IMG/VR virus record: IMGVR_UViG_3300021233_000230
Location: 1 to 23,126 of that record
DNA length: 23,126 nucleotides
Reading direction: 5' to 3' (one strand)
From: a virus
Positions 13,567 to 19,918 of this stretch are shown one piece after another. Under the pieces are notes generated by a model. It made no database searches and was not told the DNA's origin. It was given only the letters and a program-made list of their open reading frames with translations. Both the position numbers and the translations under genes were made by a program. Position 1 is the first letter of the stretch. Every line of letters starts with the position of its first letter.

Positions 13567-13910
13567 AAACGGCCGCTTGGCAGCGCAAGGAAGGGCAGGA
13601 CCCCGAGGGCGGGCTGAACGCCAAGGGTCGAGCCTCGTACCATGCCGAGACTGGTGGCGAACTGCGGCCGCCAGTCAAGGGTGCACCAAAGAGCGAGGAT
13701 GACCTCAAGCGCAAGGGCGCGTTCCTCGTCCGCATGGGCAGCTCGAAAGGGCCGCTCTTCAAGGATGGCGAGAAGACCAGGCTAAAGCTGTCCCTCGAGG
13801 CGTGGGGCCACCGCGGCGACAAACGAACTGCCGTGGCCAAGGGCCGCCGGCTGCTCGAGCGGTATTCGCTGTTGGACGTAAAAGAGCACGGAGGCGGCGA
13901 AGATGAGTAA
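13563..13910 (+). CDS. DUF6321-like phage protein
   Basis: This 115-aa basic protein overlaps the tailspike stop by ATGA and returns to GC-rich composition. Segments AAWQRKEGQDPEGGLNAKGRASY, GELRPPVKGAPK, KRKGAFLVRMGSSKGP and TRLKLSLEAWGHR follow the pattern of the DUF6321 family. That family is frequent in cyanophage, pelagiphage and other aquatic podophage or myophage genomes near tail or lysis genes. The function is unknown. The many Lys and Arg residues and the absence of membrane segments suggest nucleic-acid or virion association, but that is a guess. Its 3' end overlaps the holin start by 8 bases. Confidence 0.75.
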   Translation: MKTAAWQRKEGQDPEGGLNAKGRASYHAETGGELRPPVKGAPKSEDDLKRKGAFLVRMGSSKGPLFKDGEKTRLKLSLEAWGHRGDKRTAVAKGRRLLERYSLLDVKEHGGGEDE

Positions 13911-14079
13911 CCCAGCAAGCACTAGGGTGGCCGATGCTGCTGCCGCCACCAGTTCGCTCGGCTGGCTGGCCTCTGTTGCCACCGATACCCTGCCCATATT
14001 CCAGCTGCTGGCCGCACTGGTGGCTATTGTGGCCGGCGTGTTCGCCATCGCCTACCACTGGCAGCGGCTCAAAAAATGA
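13903..14079 (+). CDS. Holin, single-membrane-segment type
   Basis: This 58-aa protein has a short polar N-terminus, a weakly hydrophobic stretch LGWLASVATDTL (about 18-29) and one clear membrane segment, FQLLAALVAIVAGVFAIAY (about 32-50). It ends in a positively charged tail HWQRLKK, the usual cytoplasmic end of small holins. It overlaps DUF6321 by 8 bases, and its stop overlaps the endolysin start by ATGA. Placement directly before the endolysin supports a holin role: timed pores in the inner membrane that release or activate the endolysin. A second, larger holin-like gene follows the endolysin, so this one could be a pinholin or a regulator. Confidence 0.75.
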   Translation: MSNPASTRVADAAAATSSLGWLASVATDTLPIFQLLAALVAIVAGVFAIAYHWQRLKK

Positions 14080-14543
14080 GCGCCTTTGACCGGGCGCTGG
14101 CACTGGTGCTGCGCCACGAAGGTGGGCTAGTCAGCGATGAACGCGACCCCGGCGGGATTACCAACTTCGGCATCAGTCAGCGGGCGTACCCCGACCTAGA
14201 CATTCGCAACCTAAAGGTTGCAGATGCAGCGAATATTTACCGCACGGACTATTGGGACGCTATCAAGGGCGACCAGCTGCCCGACGGATTGGCCATCTGC
14301 GTGTTCGATGCTGCAGTGAACATGGGCACCGACAAGGCCATCAGGCTCCTGCAGAAGGCCTGCTCGGTGCAGGTCGATGGCTTGATTGGTCCTAACACCC
14401 TACGAGCCGCCAGCCGCCTGCCAGACGCTGTGGCGCGGTTCTCTGCCGATAGGGTAATTGCTTACACCGGAATCAGGAACTTCGACCTGTACGGTCGTGG
14501 ATGGTTACGGCGTACCATCGCCACTGCAATGGAGGCAGCATGA
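14076..14543 (+). CDS. Endolysin, GH108 N-acetylmuramidase
   Basis: This 155-aa protein cleaves the glycan strands of peptidoglycan. The N-terminal catalytic part has RHEGGLVSDERDPGGITNFGIS, in which Glu15 in HEGG is the family's catalytic acid and the DPGG-TNFGI stretch is the signature. YRTDYWDAIKGDQLPDGLAICVFDAAVNMG follows at about 55-85. The C-terminal part (about 85-140: AIRLLQKACSVQVDGLIGPNTLRAA) is a PG_binding_3-type module. No N-terminal signal or anchor segment is present, so export should depend on a holin. It overlaps both flanking holin genes by ATGA, forming a compact lysis cassette. Length and motifs agree with full-length phage GH108 enzymes. Confidence 0.93.
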   Translation: MSAFDRALALVLRHEGGLVSDERDPGGITNFGISQRAYPDLDIRNLKVADAANIYRTDYWDAIKGDQLPDGLAICVFDAAVNMGTDKAIRLLQKACSVQVDGLIGPNTLRAASRLPDAVARFSADRVIAYTGIRNFDLYGRGWLRRTIATAMEAA

Positions 14544-14956
14544 CCCCAATCCTTGGTGGCATCCTAGATGCCGGTCTAAAGATTTTGGACAAGGTCCTGC
14601 CTGACCCGCAGGCCAAAGCCGCCGCCCAACTCGAGCTGCTCAAGCTCCAGCAGGCCGGCGATTTCAAGCAGCTTGAAGCCGACCTGCAACTTGCCCTGGC
14701 ACAAACCAAAATCAACGAGATCGAGGCGGGCAGCCCTGACCTGTTCCGCGGTGGCTGGCGCCCGGCTGCCGGCTGGGTCTGCGTGGCTGGCCTTGCCTAT
14801 CAGTTCCTGTTCCAACCGCTGGCGGCATGGTCCGGTGGCGTTCAGGGCTGGGCCCCACCGCCCGTGCTGGACCTTGGCGATCTGATGGGCCTGCTGTTTG
14901 GCCTGCTCGGCCTCGGCACCCTGCGTACGGTCGACAAGCGGAACGGGAAGGGATAG
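14540..14956 (+). CDS. Second holin, GTA 3-TM type
   Basis: This 138-aa protein starts at the ATG overlapping the endolysin stop. The N-terminus MTPILGGILDAGLKILDKVLPDP and the Gln/Leu-rich helix at about 28-65 precede FRGGWRPAAGWVCVAGLAYQFLFQPL at about 73-98 and a last hydrophobic segment LMGLLFGLLGLGTL near 117-130. This is the 'holin of 3TMs, for gene-transfer release' pattern (first hydrophobic segment weak). An in-frame ATG farther upstream inside the endolysin is less likely, because the overlapping start matches its neighbours. No spanin gene was recognised here. It may be the main holin, with the 58-aa protein as partner, or the reverse. Confidence 0.78.
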   Translation: MTPILGGILDAGLKILDKVLPDPQAKAAAQLELLKLQQAGDFKQLEADLQLALAQTKINEIEAGSPDLFRGGWRPAAGWVCVAGLAYQFLFQPLAAWSGGVQGWAPPPVLDLGDLMGLLFGLLGLGTLRTVDKRNGKG

Positions 14957-15276: not shown

Positions 15277-16275
15277 GTGCCTAAAAAAGTCACGGATGAG
15301 CAGCTGATTGCCAGCTGGAATAGGCATCAGTCGCCGACGCTGGTGGCGCAGGAACTGGGAATGACCCCGCGTGCCATCATGGAACGGCGCGTCAGCGTAG
15401 AGGCGCGGCACGGGATTGTGCTCAAGACTCGCGTCACCAAAAAGCGCAGCGCAGCCGGGCCGGATTCTGTCCGGGCAGCAGTTGAGAAAACCGCCGAAAT
15501 CCGCGCCACCCACCTTGAGCAGGTCATCCCAGCCGAAGTGAAGGACGGCACGGTGCTGGTATTTTCGGACGCCCACTACTGGCCCGGCGAACCGACCGTC
15601 GCGCACCGCGCCTTGCTTAAATTGGCGCAACAGTTAAAACCTGCTTTGATTATCGCCAATGGGGACGTGTTCGATGGCGCCACCATCAGCCGCCACCCCC
15701 GCATGGGCTGGGAGCAGCGGCCATCGGTGAAGGAAGAGATTGAGGTGGTCTGCCTGCGGATGCGGGAAATTGAGAAGGCCGCCCCAAAAGCGCAGCTGCT
15801 GCGCACACTCGGGAACCATGACTCCCGGTTCGAGAACTACATCGCGGCGAACGCGCCGGCGCTCGAGGGCGTGCACGGCACCAGTCTGTTTGACTTCCTG
15901 CCTCGCTGGCGTGGTGCGTTCGCGGTTCACATCAACCAGGGCACGGATGGATGGACCGTGGTGCGCCATGTCCATGTGGCCGGCGGGGTTCACTCGGCCT
16001 ATAACTCTACCGTCAGGGCAGGGACACATTATGTCCATGGACATCTGCACAAGCTGCAAGCGACTCCTTTTGGTGACTATCGCGGTCGCCGGTATGGTGT
16101 GGACACTGGCACACTGGCCGACCCGGCAGGCTCCCAGTTCACCTACACCCAAGCAGGACCCCTGAACTGGTGCAGCGGGTTTGCCGTCCTGACCTACCGC
16201 GACCACCAGCTAATCCACCCCGAGCTGGTGGAAGTGGTGAATGGTGTGGCATGGTTCCGGGGCGAGCGGCTATAG
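15277..16275 (+). CDS. Metallophosphoesterase with N-terminal helix-turn-helix-like segment
   Basis: This 332-aa protein has the full calcineurin-type set. SDAHY (Asp98, His100), GDVFD (Asp130), GNHD (Asn180, His181, Asp182), a later His-rich stretch, and GHLH (His256, His258) together bind two metals for phosphodiester or phosphomonoester hydrolysis. The first about 55 residues (DEQLIASWNRHQSPTLVAQELGMTPRAIMERR) look like a helix-turn-helix or Sigma-70 region-4-like fold, so the enzyme may act on DNA. The start is a GTG at 15277, 3 bases after the metallopeptidase-like gene. Similar enzymes occur late in many podovirus genomes with undefined substrates. No signal peptide is present, so action is cytoplasmic. 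Confidence 0.88.
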   Translation: MPKKVTDEQLIASWNRHQSPTLVAQELGMTPRAIMERRVSVEARHGIVLKTRVTKKRSAAGPDSVRAAVEKTAEIRATHLEQVIPAEVKDGTVLVFSDAHYWPGEPTVAHRALLKLAQQLKPALIIANGDVFDGATISRHPRMGWEQRPSVKEEIEVVCLRMREIEKAAPKAQLLRTLGNHDSRFENYIAANAPALEGVHGTSLFDFLPRWRGAFAVHINQGTDGWTVVRHVHVAGGVHSAYNSTVRAGTHYVHGHLHKLQATPFGDYRGRRYGVDTGTLADPAGSQFTYTQAGPLNWCSGFAVLTYRDHQLIHPELVEVVNGVAWFRGERL

Positions 16276-16374: not shown

Positions 16375-16605
16375 ATGACCGATAACGTGAACCACCCCGC
16401 CCACTACAAGCGGGCTGGCGGCATGGAGTGCATTGAGGCCATCGAAGCCATGGTTGAGGGATGGCCGCCGGAGACCGCCTACCGGCTAGGCAATGCCCTG
16501 AAGTACCTATGGCGCCACAAAGAAAAAGGAGGGACAGAGTCCCTCCGAAAAGCCATTTGGTATATCGAGCGAGAACTCAGCGAGCCCGGCGATACCACCA
16601 GCTGA
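16375..16605 (+). CDS. DUF3310 protein
   Basis: This 76-aa protein matches DUF3310, common in phages and sometimes labelled nucleotide-kinase-like, without proven function. Marks are VNHPAHYKRAGGMECIEAIEAM at the N-terminus, GNALKYLWRHKEKGG at about 39-53, and SLRKAIWYIEREL. The ribosome site is weak (GGA about 9 bases before the ATG). It stands behind its own AT-rich control region, separate from the late operon. Its 3' end overlaps the last leftward gene tail-to-tail by 29 bases, and its coding sequence also contains the intrinsic terminator of the leftward operon, so one stretch of DNA serves two purposes. Confidence 0.85.
   Translation: MTDNVNHPAHYKRAGGMECIEAIEAMVEGWPPETAYRLGNALKYLWRHKEKGGTESLRKAIWYIERELSEPGDTTS
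16518..16546 (-). terminator. Intrinsic terminator of the leftward operon, inside the DUF3310 gene
   Basis: On the minus strand GGAGGGA (16546-16540), loop CTCTG, TCCCTCC (16534-16528) form a perfect 7-bp stem, followed at once by TTTTTCTTT (16527-16519). This is a textbook Rho-independent terminator. It lies 30 bases past the stop of the last leftward gene. On the plus strand the stem is followed by GAAAAGCC, so it works only leftward. Confidence 0.85.
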
Positions 16606-16702
16606 CCAGGGCGAACGGCGCCAGCAGGATGACGCTGGCAAGCGTCACAACACAGGCTAGCGCCACCGATACGGACATTGCCACCCTCAGGACCCAGTGC
16701 AT
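16577..16702 (-). CDS. Tiny membrane protein (41 aa), last gene of leftward operon
   Basis: The sequence MHWVLRVAMSVSVALACVVTLASVILLAPFALVSWWYRRAR has one long hydrophobic span (about 8-36) and a strongly positive C-terminus, so it should sit in the inner membrane with the tail inside. Its ATG overlaps the end of the preceding 45-aa gene by 16 bases, and its 3' end overlaps DUF3310 on the other strand. No family is recognised. It belongs to a cluster of three tiny membrane proteins at the operon end, a position where phages often carry host-takeover or superinfection-exclusion genes. That role is only an inference. Confidence 0.55.
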   Translation of the reverse strand: MHWVLRVAMSVSVALACVVTLASVILLAPFALVSWWYRRAR

Positions 16703-16824
16703 TTTTCTGCCAGATCCCGCAGGCCATTGACCGCCGCCATGGCGATGACCCCTAGGATAAGTGCCCAAATTGCCACGCAGGCCGCCGTCAGCATAACGGC
16801 CGTCACCATAATAAATGTCACCAT
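16687..16824 (-). CDS. Tiny membrane protein (45 aa)
   Basis: The 45-aa product MVTFIMVTAVMLTAACVAIW-ALILGVIAMAAVNGLRDLAEKCTGS is one hydrophobic helix (about 3-31) with a short polar, cytoplasmic-looking C-terminus. Its ATG overlaps the TGA of the 27-aa gene (sequence TGATGG), and AGGGGGG lies about 8 bases upstream, a strong ribosome site. Cys16 sits in the membrane region; no lipobox with a signal peptide is convincing, although TAAC is faintly lipobox-like. No known family is recognised. Translational coupling and the strong ribosome site argue that it is real despite its size. Confidence 0.55.
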   Translation of the reverse strand: MVTFIMVTAVMLTAACVAIWALILGVIAMAAVNGLRDLAEKCTGS

Positions 16825-16907
16825 CAGCGTTCCCCCCTGAAAAAGTACCAGTGCCACACTACGAAACCGGTCACCAAACCGGCCACGAATATCAACAGTT
16901 CTTTCAT
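16824..16907 (-). CDS. Micro-membrane protein (27 aa)
   Basis: The 27-aa protein begins MKELLIFVAGLVTGFVVWHWY and ends FFRGER. A single hydrophobic segment is capped by aromatic residues and a charged tail. A G-rich run (GGGGGG) lies 3 bases before the ATG, somewhat too close for ideal spacing. The coiled-coil gene ends 10 bases upstream, and the next gene starts inside this stop codon. Its coupling with its neighbours supports expression, but size alone makes it the least certain of the three. No family is recognised. Confidence 0.45.
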   Translation of the reverse strand: MKELLIFVAGLVTGFVVWHWYFFRGER

Positions 16908-16917
16908 GTGCCCCCCA

Positions 16918-17109
16918 TTAAAGGCCGGATTTCAGTTCCTCAACCTGCTGCTCCAGCCGGCCAATTTGCTGGTGCAGCATCTGAATTATTTGCCGCTGAA
17001 CGGCGATGGTTTCAGCCTGACTGCGGAGCCCGTCACGCTGCGCGTCGATGGTGTCATCGGCACGGGAGCAAGCCTCTCGGTATTTGGCAAGCAGAACGTC
17101 GGCATTCAT
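16918..17109 (-). CDS. Small coiled-coil protein (63 aa)
   Basis: The 63-aa protein begins MNADVLLAKYREACSRADDTIDAQ. From about residue 25 to the end it is a heptad-rich helix (TIAVQRQIIQMLHQQIGRLEQQVEELKSGL), so it should form a parallel or antiparallel coiled coil. The start overlaps the stop of the upstream zinc-binding protein gene by ATGA. No membrane segment or signal is seen. No family is recognised. It may be a scaffold or partner for the other coiled-coil protein of this operon (17444-17758). It lies upstream of the three tiny membrane genes in the same transcript. Confidence 0.65.
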   Translation of the reverse strand: MNADVLLAKYREACSRADDTIDAQRDGLRSQAETIAVQRQIIQMLHQQIGRLEQQVEELKSGL

Positions 17110-17447
17110 GCGTCACCCCGACAGATGTAACACAGCGCCACGGCCGCGCTGGCTCCGGTCTTGTTCCGACAGCACCAGCAGGCCGTCCCATTCTTCGGGT
17201 GCCGCAGCGGGATTTTGTGGGAGTTCTGTACGGCCTTGGCTTTCTGGTGGCGAGCTTTCATCATCGCGGCGTGCCGCTTGTACCTGGTACACCCACAGGA
17301 TCTGTAGGTGTCCGTCCGCAAAGCCCCGCCATCAAAATAGCGCTCTGTGCCGCAGTCACACCTGACGCGCCAGCCAAGTCCACGCTCATGCCCCAAGACA
17401 GACAACATTCCATATCGACTGGCTACAGACTTGACTTCTCGAGTCAT
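17106..17447 (-). CDS. Putative double zinc-binding protein (113 aa)
   Basis: Two Cys clusters are evident. Cys30/Cys32 with Cys51/Cys53 occur in WRVRCDCGTERYFDGG and YRSCGCTRYKR, the front-end pattern often seen in phage homing-endonuclease-like or DNA-binding proteins. A second ribbon has Cys90, Cys93, Cys106 and Cys109 (CWCC ... CYIC). The middle is very basic (about 54-86). No HNH or GIY-YIG catalytic motif was found, so nuclease activity is not supported; nucleic-acid binding is the more cautious reading. It overlaps both neighbours by ATGA. It may bind early transcripts or phage DNA alongside the recombination proteins encoded upstream. Confidence 0.65.
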   Translation of the reverse strand: MTREVKSVASRYGMLSVLGHERGLGWRVRCDCGTERYFDGGALRTDTYRSCGCTRYKRHAAMMKARHQKAKAVQNSHKIPLRHPKNGTACWCCRNKTGASAAVALCYICRGDA

Positions 17448-17758
17448 GCCATCTGCCCACGAATTGCGGCCGCCACCTTGCGAATGGATTCGGTGTCCAA
17501 CCCCACTGCGGCAATGTCCTCCCTCAACCTGGTCAACTTCATATCCGTGATGAGCAGCTCGTCGCGCAATCGCTGATTCGTGGTGCGCAGTCGAGACAAT
17601 TCCTGCTCACCGGTTTCCACGCCAGCCGCAGGTTCCTCGATTTGCGACTTGTTCCTCCACCTCAGCCGGATATTCTCGGCACGCAACAGGGCGGTATCGA
17701 TGCTGAGTGCCTCGATCTCGGAATGCAGACGGGCCAGTTCCTGCTCTGTCGTTTCCAT
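17444..17758 (-). CDS. Coiled-coil protein (104 aa)
   Basis: The 104-aa protein is mostly two helical heptad regions. One is at about 3-40 (ELARLHSEIEALSIDTALLRAENIRLRW), the other at about 50-85 (EQELSRLRTTNQRLRDELLITDMKLTRLREDI). They are joined by a short polar linker with Pro. The internal similarity (TxEQELxRL near residues 3-10 and 49-57) suggests an old duplication. No Cys, membrane span or signal is present. Start and stop overlap both neighbours. No family is recognised. It may pair with the 63-aa coiled-coil protein encoded downstream. Confidence 0.65.
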   Translation of the reverse strand: METTEQELARLHSEIEALSIDTALLRAENIRLRWRNKSQIEEPAAGVETGEQELSRLRTTNQRLRDELLITDMKLTRLREDIAAVGLDTESIRKVAAAIRGQMA

Positions 17759-17946
17759 CAGCGCAGCTCCTCAGGTTTTGGTTTGGACCCGGCCTTGTGC
17801 CCTTCAAGCCACGCCCTCTCCAGCAGGTTCAGGGTGGCATTGAACGGCCAGCGGACGCCGGTGCGGTCACTGTCTAGGAGACGGACCGCGGCAGATGCCG
17901 CGGCCTCGACCAGTTCCCGACGGTAGTCAGAACGGGATTTCATCAT
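17758..17946 (-). CDS. Small hypothetical protein (62 aa)
   Basis: This 62-aa protein starts at ATGATG (17946 or 17943), just inside the SSB 3' end, and its stop overlaps the next start by one base. It reads MMKSRSDYRRELVEAAASAA, then VRWPFNATLNLLERAWLEGHKAGSK. The product is probably two or three helices with a basic N-terminus. No motif, membrane span or family is recognised. Overlap with SSB (20 bases) indicates translational coupling. Codon use matches the phage backbone. Confidence 0.6.
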   Translation of the reverse strand: MMKSRSDYRRELVEAAASAAVRLLDSDRTGVRWPFNATLNLLERAWLEGHKAGSKPKPEELR

Positions 17947-18361
17947 CGAGGCTCTGCTCGGTGGGTGGCGCCGGGCGGGACTGCTTGGGAGCGCTCCACG
18001 TCGACGGAGTCATGAGAGGCTTGGCAGGGCCGGGGGATTCGGTCTGCTCGGCTTCACGGCCGCCCTGTAGCGTCAGGCGCTGCACGTCGCAGGTGATGGT
18101 GGCGCCGGCCGACCCGTCCTTCTTCTCGAAGGTCCGCAGGTTGAAATCGCCGGCCAACGTGACCGACTTCCCTTTGACCAGGTAAGGCTGGAGTTTGGCG
18201 GCCCGCTCGCCCCACAGGGCGCAGTCAATCCACAGGGTGGTCTTGTTGTCGCCCCGACCGATGTCCACGGCGACGGCGAAGTTCACCACCTCCTTCCCGG
18301 ACTGTAGCACCTTGTGTTCGGCGTCCCGGCCCAAGCGGCCGGCAATCGTAATCAGGTTCAT
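17927..18361 (-). CDS. ssb: Single-stranded DNA-binding protein
   Basis: This 144-aa protein binds ssDNA during replication and recombination. An OB fold spans about 1-105: MNLITIAGRLGRDAE, then VVNFAVAVD, LWIDCALWGERAAKLQPYLVKGKSVTLAG and ATITCDVQRLTLQGG. A disordered Pro/Ser/Gln-rich linker follows, and the C-terminal tip DDEIPF is the acidic peptide by which SSB recruits partner proteins, including host enzymes. Length is normal for a bacterial-type SSB (slightly short). The start overlaps the ERF gene by ATGA, with GGAGTCGAA as ribosome site. It forms a recombination module with the ERF annealing protein and the YqaJ nuclease. Confidence 0.95.
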   Translation of the reverse strand: MNLITIAGRLGRDAEHKVLQSGKEVVNFAVAVDIGRGDNKTTLWIDCALWGERAAKLQPYLVKGKSVTLAGDFNLRTFEKKDGSAGATITCDVQRLTLQGGREAEQTESPGPAKPLMTPSTWSAPKQSRPAPPTEQSLDDEIPF

Positions 18362-18951
18362 TCGTTCGACTCCTTGGCCGTGAGTGCGGCCTTGCGGTTG
18401 GTGAAAGCATCGATGGCCGCAGCCCGGTCAGGACCGACCAGCGTTCGGATCTGTTCGCGCAGCTGCTCGAGCTGCTCGTCTGTGCCGGCGTCCGTGATGG
18501 CCGTCAGCAGCAGCGGCAAGCCAGACGAGCGGCGCGGGGCGACAGGCTTATTGTGGGAGGCGGAGTTGCCGTCATCGTCTTCCTGCGCCACGCCAGCCAT
18601 GGCGGCCAGCCCGTAGCGGCGGAGGTAGGTGGTGGCTGCACCGATGCCCTGAGCGTCGGCCTTGGCCGGTACGCAACTGGCAGTCGAGGTGACGTAGCCG
18701 CCATCCTTGTGGACGATGGCTGTGGTCACAAACACCACACCCGGCTCGGCCGAGGTGGACTGGACGATGGCCAGCCCGTACTTGGCAAAGGTGGGGCGCA
18801 CCGTGTTCAGGACCTCGGCAAGGTCGGCGTAGCTCGGCTTGCCGTTCTTGCTGAACCCGCCGTTGACGGAGTTCTTGGTGGCGTTCTCGATCTCGCCCTG
18901 GGCGAGGGCAAGGGCCGCGAACAGCGGCGCATTGGCGTGGTCAAGATTCAT
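18358..18951 (-). CDS. ERF-family single-strand annealing protein
   Basis: The 197-aa protein matches the ERF family of phage P22-type annealing recombinases, which anneal complementary strands after end resection. Marks are the N-terminal LFAALALAQGEIENATKN, SYADLAEVLNTVRPTFAKYGLAIVQS at about 40-65, and the signature IGAATTYLRRYGLAAMAGVAQEDDDGN at about 103-129. The tail (about 130-197) is variable and probably binds partners. Start and stop overlap YqaJ and SSB by ATGA, so the three are translated together. Length is normal for the family. Host-independent recombination and genome circularisation or repair are the expected jobs. Confidence 0.9.
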   Translation of the reverse strand: MNLDHANAPLFAALALAQGEIENATKNSVNGGFSKNGKPSYADLAEVLNTVRPTFAKYGLAIVQSTSAEPGVVFVTTAIVHKDGGYVTSTASCVPAKADAQGIGAATTYLRRYGLAAMAGVAQEDDDGNSASHNKPVAPRRSSGLPLLLTAITDAGTDEQLEQLREQIRTLVGPDRAAAIDAFTNRKAALTAKESNE

Positions 18952-19571
18952 TGCTTCGACTCCTCAATCTGTCGGATGGTGGCCTCGACCTCACGGTCGA
19001 ATACCTCAATTTCGCGCTTGAGCATTTCGATGAACGGCTCGTCGCGCTCGACGCGCTGAACGAACAACTGGTACTCGGCGGGGACGCGCGGGTCCCAGCT
19101 AATAAAGTCGCACCATTCCCGGCCAGTGACCCACATCACGCCCTGCACTTGGGCGTAGTGCTCGTCCGGCATCCCATCAAGAATGGTCTGGACATGGGTC
19201 CGAGTGTTCGGTGCCTTGATCTCGATGCAGCCGTCAATCCCAACCAGTCCGTCCGGACTCCCGCCGGCGGCAGCCTTGAGGTTATCGAGTACAACGATGA
19301 ATCCGGCCTGCTCGACGGTCTCGCCGTACTTCGCCTCATAGGCGACGCGGGCGAACTCTTCCTGGTCGATGCCCCATTGCATTGCCTGGTTGACGAAGTG
19401 GTGCGTCGGCTGCCCGGTCAGGCGTTCGCAGACCAGTTCCATCAGGTAATCCTGACGAGCCTGCGCCGGCTGGCCGTTCTTCAGGCGGGCCAGCACGGCC
19501 TTGAACCGGCTGGCGGTGATGCGGCCGACACGTTCGGCCAGCCACCCATCGGTGCGTTGTTCAACGGACAT
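18948..19571 (-). CDS. YqaJ-type viral recombinase/exonuclease
   Basis: This 207-aa PD-(D/E)XK nuclease is the lambda-exonuclease relative that resects duplex ends for the annealing protein. RTDGWLAERVGRITASRF at 6-23 is the family N-terminus. Next are GIDQEEFARVAYEAKYG at about 67-83, SPDGL with Asp107, and CIEIKAP with Glu117 and Lys119, completing the catalytic core. HYAQVQGVMWVTGREWCDF near 136-154 follows. The ATG at 19571 has AAGGGGA upstream. An earlier in-frame ATG would add about 27 residues within the neighbouring gene and does not look conserved. It overlaps the ERF gene by ATGA and the upstream small membrane gene by 11 bases. Confidence 0.9.
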   Translation of the reverse strand: MSVEQRTDGWLAERVGRITASRFKAVLARLKNGQPAQARQDYLMELVCERLTGQPTHHFVNQAMQWGIDQEEFARVAYEAKYGETVEQAGFIVVLDNLKAAAGGSPDGLVGIDGCIEIKAPNTRTHVQTILDGMPDEHYAQVQGVMWVTGREWCDFISWDPRVPAEYQLFVQRVERDEPFIEMLKREIEVFDREVEATIRQIEESKQ

Positions 19572-19722
19572 TACGATTCCCCTTCTTGAAAGTGGCCATC
19601 GGCTTGCGACGCTGGCGCAAACGCTCGATGGCAGATGAAACCATGGTGGCAACGAAGCCGACCAGGAACACCAACCCCAGCCACATCAGGGCAAGGATTT
19701 CGTAGTCATCAAAAGTCTGCAC
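19561..19722 (-). CDS. Small membrane protein (53 aa)
   Basis: A GTG start gives a 53-aa protein: VQTFDDYEILALMWLGLVFL, a single membrane span of about 20 residues (about 9-31), then a basic tail IERLRQRRKPMATFKKGNRN. This is an N-out or N-in single-span inner-membrane protein with a positively charged cytoplasmic end. Start and stop overlap the neighbouring genes. No family is recognised. A longer frame with ATG at 19782 exists but would be out of step with the overlapping 69-aa gene, so GTG at 19722 is preferred. It is the fourth tiny membrane protein of this operon. Confidence 0.55.
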   Translation of the reverse strand: MQTFDDYEILALMWLGLVFLVGFVATMVSSAIERLRQRRKPMATFKKGNRNVR

Positions 19723-19918
19723 GGTAGATCTCCGGGTTCGGGTCAAAGCGCAGGTGCTTGGGCACGAACGAGTCGTGCACAATGCCGTCCTGCAGGTACT
19801 CGTTCGCCTGGCAGATGACCAGACCGCCTTTGCCGTCGGACTTCAGGGTCAGGCCGCAGCGGGCCAGTCCCTGCACCAGCTGCACCACGGGGGTGCTGGG
19901 GTCGACAGTGATTTTCAC
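19709..19918 (-). CDS. Hypothetical protein (69 aa)
   Basis: This 69-aa protein uses a GTG start embedded in the stop of the upstream gene (CTGTGA), with GGAGG about 6 bases before it. It reads VKITVDPSTPVVQLVQGLARCGLTLKSDGKGGLVICQ, followed by HDSFVPKHLRFDP. The pattern suggests a small alpha/beta fold. No motif or family is recognised, and no membrane span is seen. Coupling to its neighbours and a good ribosome site support it as real. Confidence 0.6.
   Translation of the reverse strand: MKITVDPSTPVVQLVQGLARCGLTLKSDGKGGLVICQANEYLQDGIVHDSFVPKHLRFDPNPEIYRADF

Follow-up and report, generated by a model that had tools for sequence, protein, structure and literature searches.

Predicted single-helix membrane microproteins conserved at the end of a probable early operon in an uncultivated phage

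Introduction

The superinfection-exclusion protein PfsE (PA0721) of the filamentous phage Pf4 is an inner-membrane protein of 30 amino acids with an aromatic cluster. It carries the motif YXWGW, binds PilC and blocks type IV pili, and 30 residues with an aromatic cluster suffice for exclusion via an inner-membrane partner (PMC8764522). P22 SieA and HK97 gp15 are described as prophage-encoded inner-membrane exclusion proteins that stop incoming DNA, SieA blocking DNA entry by acting on ejection proteins; P22-like and T7-like phages are described there as building an ejection conduit across the inner membrane (PMC10883804). In phage lambda, the small exo-xis genes orf60a, orf63, orf61 and ea22 follow exo on the early leftward transcript. 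Of these, orf60a, orf63 and orf61 are described as early genes with a pro-lytic tendency, and the exo-xis products as small soluble folds, coiled-coil proteins or zinc binders (PMC8614690).

Here we analyse the 23,126-base record of a virus, a fragment of an uncultivated phage whose whole length is called the window below, in which three overlapping short frames (mp27, mp45 and mp41) close a block of minus-strand genes. Phage proteins of fewer than 50 amino acids are often overlooked by gene finders. The position of this trio, downstream of an exonuclease gene on an early leftward-type operon, matches that of the lambda exo-xis genes by positional analogy only, and the soluble products described for lambda are unlike the membrane helices predicted here. 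For mp27, mp45 and mp41, no PHROG match at E below 0.1 links them to those genes. Compared by description, mp27 resembles PfsE in its 27 amino acids and in the sequence WHWYFF near its end; Pf4 is filamentous, however, PfsE acts in a pilus context, and inspection of three mp27 sequences found no YXWGW motif as given for PfsE (PMC8764522). Likewise by description, SieA and gp15 are prophage-encoded, whereas the trio consists of three microproteins ending a recombination operon, and any likeness of mp45 and mp41 to that type would lie in predicted helix and hydropathy alone.

Results

Gene layout of the window

The tail genes, the tail fibre gene, the lysis cassette, the metallophosphoesterase gene and the DUF3310 gene are all encoded on the plus strand. 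Tail and internal-protein genes have the size and order of the T7 type, the internal-protein names being those we presume for such a block. An overlapping block of minus-strand genes faces this set, and beyond the block the plus strand resumes with a Cro/DicC-like gene (a weak match, below its cut-off) next to a putative primase/helicase-like gene named by reading of its sequence. Matches to the tail and recombination genes are scattered across many bacteria and do not pin the host. The features on which the analysis relies are as follows.

13903..14956, plus strand: lysis cassette, comprising a 58-aa single-helix holin candidate, a GH108 endolysin and a 3-TM holin (endolysin and 3-TM holin by Pfam/PHROGs)
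16375..16605, plus strand: convergent DUF3310 gene (Pfam DUF3310, 2.8e-14)
16546-16528, minus strand: hairpin terminator GGAGGGACTCTGTCCCTCC followed by the T-run TTTTTCTTTG (scan; fold energy −14.8 kcal/mol)
16702-16577, minus strand: mp41, open reading frame of 41 aa, last gene of the operon
16824-16687, minus strand: mp45, open reading frame of 45 aa, ATG start
16907-16824, minus strand: mp27, open reading frame of 27 aa, ATG start
16918..17109, minus strand: open reading frame for a 63-aa coiled-coil-type protein, upstream of mp27
17106..17447, minus strand: zinc-ribbon/HNH-like protein of 113 aa (PHROG 374, HNH endonuclease, 1e-6)
17444..19571, minus strand: remainder of the early operon, encoding a 104-aa coiled coil, a 62-aa protein, an SSB-like protein, an ERF-like annealing protein and a YqaJ-type exonuclease
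19722-19561, minus strand: mp53, open reading frame of 53 aa, GTG start, just upstream of the exonuclease gene
20731-20703, minus strand: promoter-like site TTGACA-17-TACATT (10 of 12 consensus positions)

The ERF-like assignment comes from tblastn to phage recombinase/Erf-like records and the exonuclease assignment from annotated exonuclease/YqaJ features beneath a DNA match; the putative SSB-like protein was named by reading of its sequence, with no library result behind it. Orthologues of the genes in 17444..19571 are present in the same related contigs as the microproteins. The C-terminal half of the zinc-ribbon/HNH-like protein is 76-84% identical in L004-L007, and its gene is the usual upstream neighbour of the microproteins. 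Between it and mp27 sits the gene for the 63-aa coiled-coil-type protein, which gave only weak and unspecific library matches and no match in five relatives. In the lysis cassette, the 58-aa single-helix frame (13903-14079, plus strand) lies between DUF6321 and the endolysin, is 91-97% identical in relatives and is likely a small holin besides the 3-TM holin.

The four frames are conserved as proteins

A reading of the sequence alone had proposed head-to-tail overlapping frames of 27, 45 and 41 aa, each with one hydrophobic helix and two of them with good ribosome sites, and a fourth frame of 53 aa; these proposals are borne out. Adjacent frames overlap by 1 nt (mp27/mp45, the mp45 ATG sharing the A of the mp27 TGA in a TGATG junction) and by 16 nt (mp45/mp41). 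Ribosome sites were found for the whole trio, with strong Shine-Dalgarno sequences for mp27 (ATGGGGGGCAC-ATG) and mp45 (AGGGGGGAACGCTG-ATG) and a weak one for mp41, which relies on its overlap with mp45. The 53-aa frame is present with its GTG start and has orthologues in relatives. The search among relatives advised in that reading yielded orthologues with start, stop and frame kept; none of the relatives has lost a frame while preserving its DNA, and where mp27 is absent the entire gene is absent.

To gauge chance occurrence, we counted ATG frames 25-60 aa long that hold a hydrophobic stretch of membrane grade. Among 5000 dinucleotide shuffles of the region, not one had three such frames (3 had two, 284 had one and 4713 had none); of 1518 sliding 360-nt windows along the two strands of the whole window, 1 had three. 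The conservation seen in relatives is better evidence than both of these counts. The start and stop of mp45 and mp41 are kept in six contigs despite nucleotide differences of up to 40%, and the core codons (2 to 37 of mp45, 7 to 31 of mp41) contain neither stops nor gaps. Variable columns at the first, second and third codon positions number 18/12/30 for mp45, 13/8/17 for mp41, 11/5/8 for mp27 and 17/9/23 for mp53. Per 2000 column shuffles, the observed protein score was reached 0 times for mp45, 5 for mp41, 0 for mp27 and 1 for mp53. Judged by sequence comparison, mp27, mp45, mp41 and mp53 are genuine genes.

Gene order in related contigs

Scans based on the metallophosphoesterase and on the exonuclease kept 80 and 14 loci, respectively. 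Translated searches placed mp45 and mp41 side by side in five of five related viral contigs (L004, L005, L006, L007 and L010), and with the window included the pair occurs in 6/6 contigs of a clade that comprises six contigs only, several of them short. Identity to the window in the five contigs is 58-61% for mp45 and 59-76% for mp41. mp27 was found in two of the five (78% identity in L007, 63% in L010), and mp53 in L004, L006 and L007 at 57-58%, that is, in all three contigs reaching that point, since L005 and L010 stop short of its position. Across these contigs, mp27 is optional and mp45 with mp41 forms the constant core.

In the contigs lacking mp27 (L004, L005 and L006), the zinc-ribbon gene is joined directly to mp45 by TGATG. 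L010 has a different upstream gene, methylase-like by eye, yet the order mp27-mp45-mp41 is unchanged. In L005, L006 and L007, mp45 is four codons shorter (41 aa) and mp41 starts via a 4-nt ATGA overlap, not 16 nt. The last codons of the gene preceding mp45 coincide with the mp45 ribosome site in the window (16824-16840, minus strand), in L004-L007 and in L010: RGER-stop of mp27 or KGER-stop and EGNY-stop of the zinc-ribbon gene double in this way, and RGKR-stop is a further form. Conservation of those last residues is therefore partly a constraint on DNA. Cassettes appear, from these sequences, to have been swapped at the stop/start junction before mp45.

Predicted membrane helices

The maximum 19-residue hydropathy is 1.85 for mp27, 2.60 for mp45, 2.62 for mp41 and 2.46 for mp53, all in the membrane range. 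AlphaFold models based on six-sequence alignments predict a single helix for mp45 (residues 2-42, mean pLDDT 94.3) and for mp41 (residues 2-40, mean pLDDT 85.5). The C-terminus of mp41 is basic (YRRAR) and mp53 has a basic tail; such basic C-termini suggest a C-terminus-in orientation. A mid-helix cysteine is invariant in all six contigs in both mp45 (residue 16) and mp41 (residue 17). Paralogy of the two proteins, considered on account of this shared cysteine, was dropped when hhalign aligned two columns only.

Bounds of the transcript

The trio had been placed at the end of what looks like an early operon, and a promoter-like site and a conserved hairpin terminator indeed bound the unit. The promoter-like site has a counterpart, identical in hexamers and spacing, at position 11442 of L006, the one relative in which it was found. 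The hairpin lies 30 nt past the mp41 stop codon, in antisense of the DUF3310 coding sequence; the 3′ end of the DUF3310 gene runs 29 nt into mp41. All six contigs retain the hairpin and its T-run, with a G-T pair in L010; no hairpin was found in seven metallophosphoesterase relatives without the trio, two of which had only 74 and 908 bases beyond the gene. In the scan, terminator-like sites were no commoner in the region than in shuffles (4 versus a mean of 4.0), so the terminator claim rests on conservation. The conserved hairpin after mp41 and the promoter-like site place the trio last on what is probably a single early transcript of roughly 4.2 kb; gene content and divergence from the Cro-like gene suggest the early timing.

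Rates of change

Relative to L006 and L007, identity is 97-99% for the 58-aa holin candidate (97% in both), the endolysin and the 3-TM holin, 83-94% for SSB, ERF and exonuclease, 68% for the metallophosphoesterase and only 60-63% for mp45, mp41 and mp53. The metallophosphoesterase gene (15277-16275, plus strand) stands at 68% next to genes just upstream at 95-99%, a drop that suggests a recombination breakpoint in these sequences. Whole-gene dN/dS between the window and its relatives ranges over 0.15-0.45 for mp45, 0.26-0.75 for mp41 and 0.19-0.20 for mp53. The corresponding ranges are 0.08-0.21 for SSB, ERF and exonuclease and 0.06-0.12 for the 58-aa holin candidate, which by hydropathy is likewise a single-helix protein. 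The 69-aa neighbour at 19709-19918 shows equal relaxation (0.50-0.59). For core codons, the values are 0.07-0.55 for mp45 (15 pairs), 0.18-1.17 for mp41 (15 pairs, of which one, L005-L007, is above 1), 0.40-0.63 for mp27 (3 pairs) and 0.18-0.44 for mp53 (6 pairs).

Replacement and silent changes were compared by Fisher tests with a pool of soluble genes (cc104, p62, SSB, ERF and exonuclease). For L007, L006 and L004, in that order, the p values are 0.053, 0.009 and 0.021 for mp45, 0.004, 0.0015 and 0.19 for mp41, and 0.054, 0.013 and 0.017 for mp53; these nine tests share sequences and are non-independent, the p values are uncorrected, three of the nine exceed 0.05, and the mp41 ratio comes from few changes. 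The microprotein rates fit conflict-driven change and loose constraint on a hydrophobic helix alike, the latter because hydrophobic residues can stand in for one another.

Homology searches

For mp27, mp45 and mp41, no match at E below 0.1 was obtained in PHROGs, Pfam, NCBIfam or PADLOC; mp53 gave a weak PHROG match (0.06) and a match to LapA_dom (E 0.0011, 19.3 bits) below the cut-off of 28. The GenBank phage collection contained no match to mp41 or mp45 with the low-complexity filter on, a setting that may hide hydrophobic queries. Profiles of all four microproteins run against the 19433 stop-to-stop frames of the gathered loci retrieved the five relatives only, of 48 whole records selected from those loci, 5 contained mp41 (the same five contigs), viral-contig scans with the A2 and A1 queries returned the same five, and a scan for the pattern WHWYFFRG returned two of them. 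Across family libraries, GenBank phages and profile searches, the microproteins showed no homology to exclusion proteins or to anything named. By these comparisons, mp45, mp41, mp27 and mp53 are new small families of a well-known type.

Three candidates were rejected. An mp41 match in genome contig L100, a Deltaproteobacteria MAG, covers only 29 residues and is antisense to a topoisomerase-VI-like frame (named by reading). A 44-base plasmid match from Azospirillum was taken as chance. Homology of mp45 to helices of 41-47 aa in L003, L009 and L034 was set aside since decoys scored better, and these frames are kept as an analogy.

A slot for helices in the wider phage group

We surveyed the metallophosphoesterase loci that extend 900 bases or more past that gene for minus-strand ATG frames no longer than 75 aa that combine a ribosome-site-like motif with high hydropathy. 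One or more such frames were present in 25 of 74 loci; the 74 include the window's own (L001), the loci are non-independent, and the count has no chance control. Nine loci carry one family (starting MPVGG or MPVDG) and four another. The MPVGG frame of L036 follows an HNH-position gene (by reading) with a 1-nt overlap, downstream of ERF and exonuclease. The frames of 44-47 aa in L036, L034, L009 and other phages of the group are similar to mp45 and mp41 in size, in having a single hydrophobic helix and in belonging to a convergent operon that lies downstream of the metallophosphoesterase gene; the L036 frame occupies the same slot. They differ from mp45 and mp41 in that the best forward profile match has an E value of 1.3, while reversed-sequence decoys reach 0.065. 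Together, these observations suggest a slot for single-helix proteins that different families fill.

A distinct set of minus-strand frames of 40-44 aa with a hydrophobic N-terminus and the motif EPCDGHSCD occurs in L036 (10676-10798, adjoining the ERF/exonuclease genes) and also in L022, L024, L031, L040 and L072. From their sequences, they look like small secreted or lipid-anchored proteins.

Discussion

The reading we favour, and hold tentatively as a whole, is that mp45, mp41 and optionally mp27 are translated early membrane microproteins that modify the inner membrane, superinfection exclusion being their likeliest role. Their genes, at the 3′ end of a single pL-like operon of 4.2 kb, would be expressed early, and coupling of mp41 translation to that of mp45 would ensure that both are made together. 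Each would insert in the host cytoplasmic membrane as a single helix, its basic C-terminus probably inside, and act early as an accessory that alters the inner membrane or a machine in it. We infer the early timing, membrane location, orientation and joint action from the data above; exclusion as the function is a guess by analogy, as was the view in the sequence-only reading that such clusters are typical for superinfection exclusion. Several observations count for the favoured reading. Faster protein change than in the soluble operon genes is as expected for proteins in host or phage-phage conflict and speaks mildly for a role in such competition. Known exclusion proteins act at the inner membrane, which the T7-type conduit crosses, and this counts for exclusion. 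Elsewhere in the phage group, too, unrelated single-helix microproteins fill a comparable slot. Counting against it, the searches showed no homology of the microproteins to exclusion proteins, their fast change may also reflect weak constraint, with one mp41 core-codon pair above 1, and the clade is small.

The early position, inner-membrane helix form, rapid change and gain or loss of mp27 fit equally well with helices for anti-defence or host takeover, which would aid their own phage by silencing a host inner-membrane protein (a defence sensor, transporter, protease or cell-division part) or by dissipating the membrane potential. The absence of PADLOC matches for the four microproteins is compatible with this alternative. 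No known partner or family points to it, however, and mp45 and mp41 are kept together in 6/6 contigs, a constancy that many anti-defence genes do not reach; we regard this explanation as possible but rather unlikely. Lysis timing by a holin, antiholin or spanin component, expressed early to delay or tune lysis, is improbable. Holins and antiholins are usually small single-helix proteins, as the microproteins are predicted to be, and no obvious spanin was noticed near the lysis genes. Lysis inhibition, which had been proposed from the sequence, is nevertheless unsupported. A lysis cassette of the phage's own sits on the plus strand and evolves very differently (97-99% identity in L006/L007 versus 61-63% for mp45 and mp41), and homologues of the 3-TM holin occur in L002, L003 and L009, where the frames are absent; both facts disfavour lysis control. 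The microproteins are not encoded with the endolysin, as a holin or antiholin would be, but on the opposite strand, in an operon of their own that has a separate promoter-like site and terminator. Inspection of mp27, mp45, mp41 and mp53 found neither a lipobox, in the pattern we take to define it, nor a periplasmic coiled coil of the spanin type.

Given their place on the transcript, with an exonuclease followed by small coiled-coil, zinc-type and tiny proteins, the frames could also be developmental modulators like the small lambda exo-xis genes, which follow the recombination genes on the early leftward transcript. The exo-xis models are described as soluble folds, though, as opposed to the membrane helices predicted here, and neither an integrase nor a CI-type repressor was seen in the fragment, which is possibly incomplete; we consider this role improbable as well. 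Still less probable is that the frames are near-neutral, translated but kept mainly for ribosome sites and for translation up to the terminator. The RGER-stop and KGER-stop codons that form the mp45 ribosome site and the dN/dS ratios, relaxed relative to other genes, are in keeping with it; protein-level conservation of mp45 and mp41 that beats shuffles, and retention of both starts and stops in six contigs although nucleotide differences reach 40%, argue against it.

An extension of the favoured reading, which we put forward as speculation with a low chance of being right, is that the early-operon end in this phage group is an exchange slot, occupied by unrelated helices in different phages, in which mp45 and mp41 of this clade would form a co-translated two-part device that excludes sister phages via the ejection conduit and changes fast to match rivals. 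For the biology of these phages, the comparative evidence indicates that at least four microproteins are genes, two of which always travel together and change faster than the rest of the operon. Should a role in exclusion or anti-defence prove true, the microproteins would rank with the smallest proteins of that sort and would be convenient for probing targets in the inner membrane.
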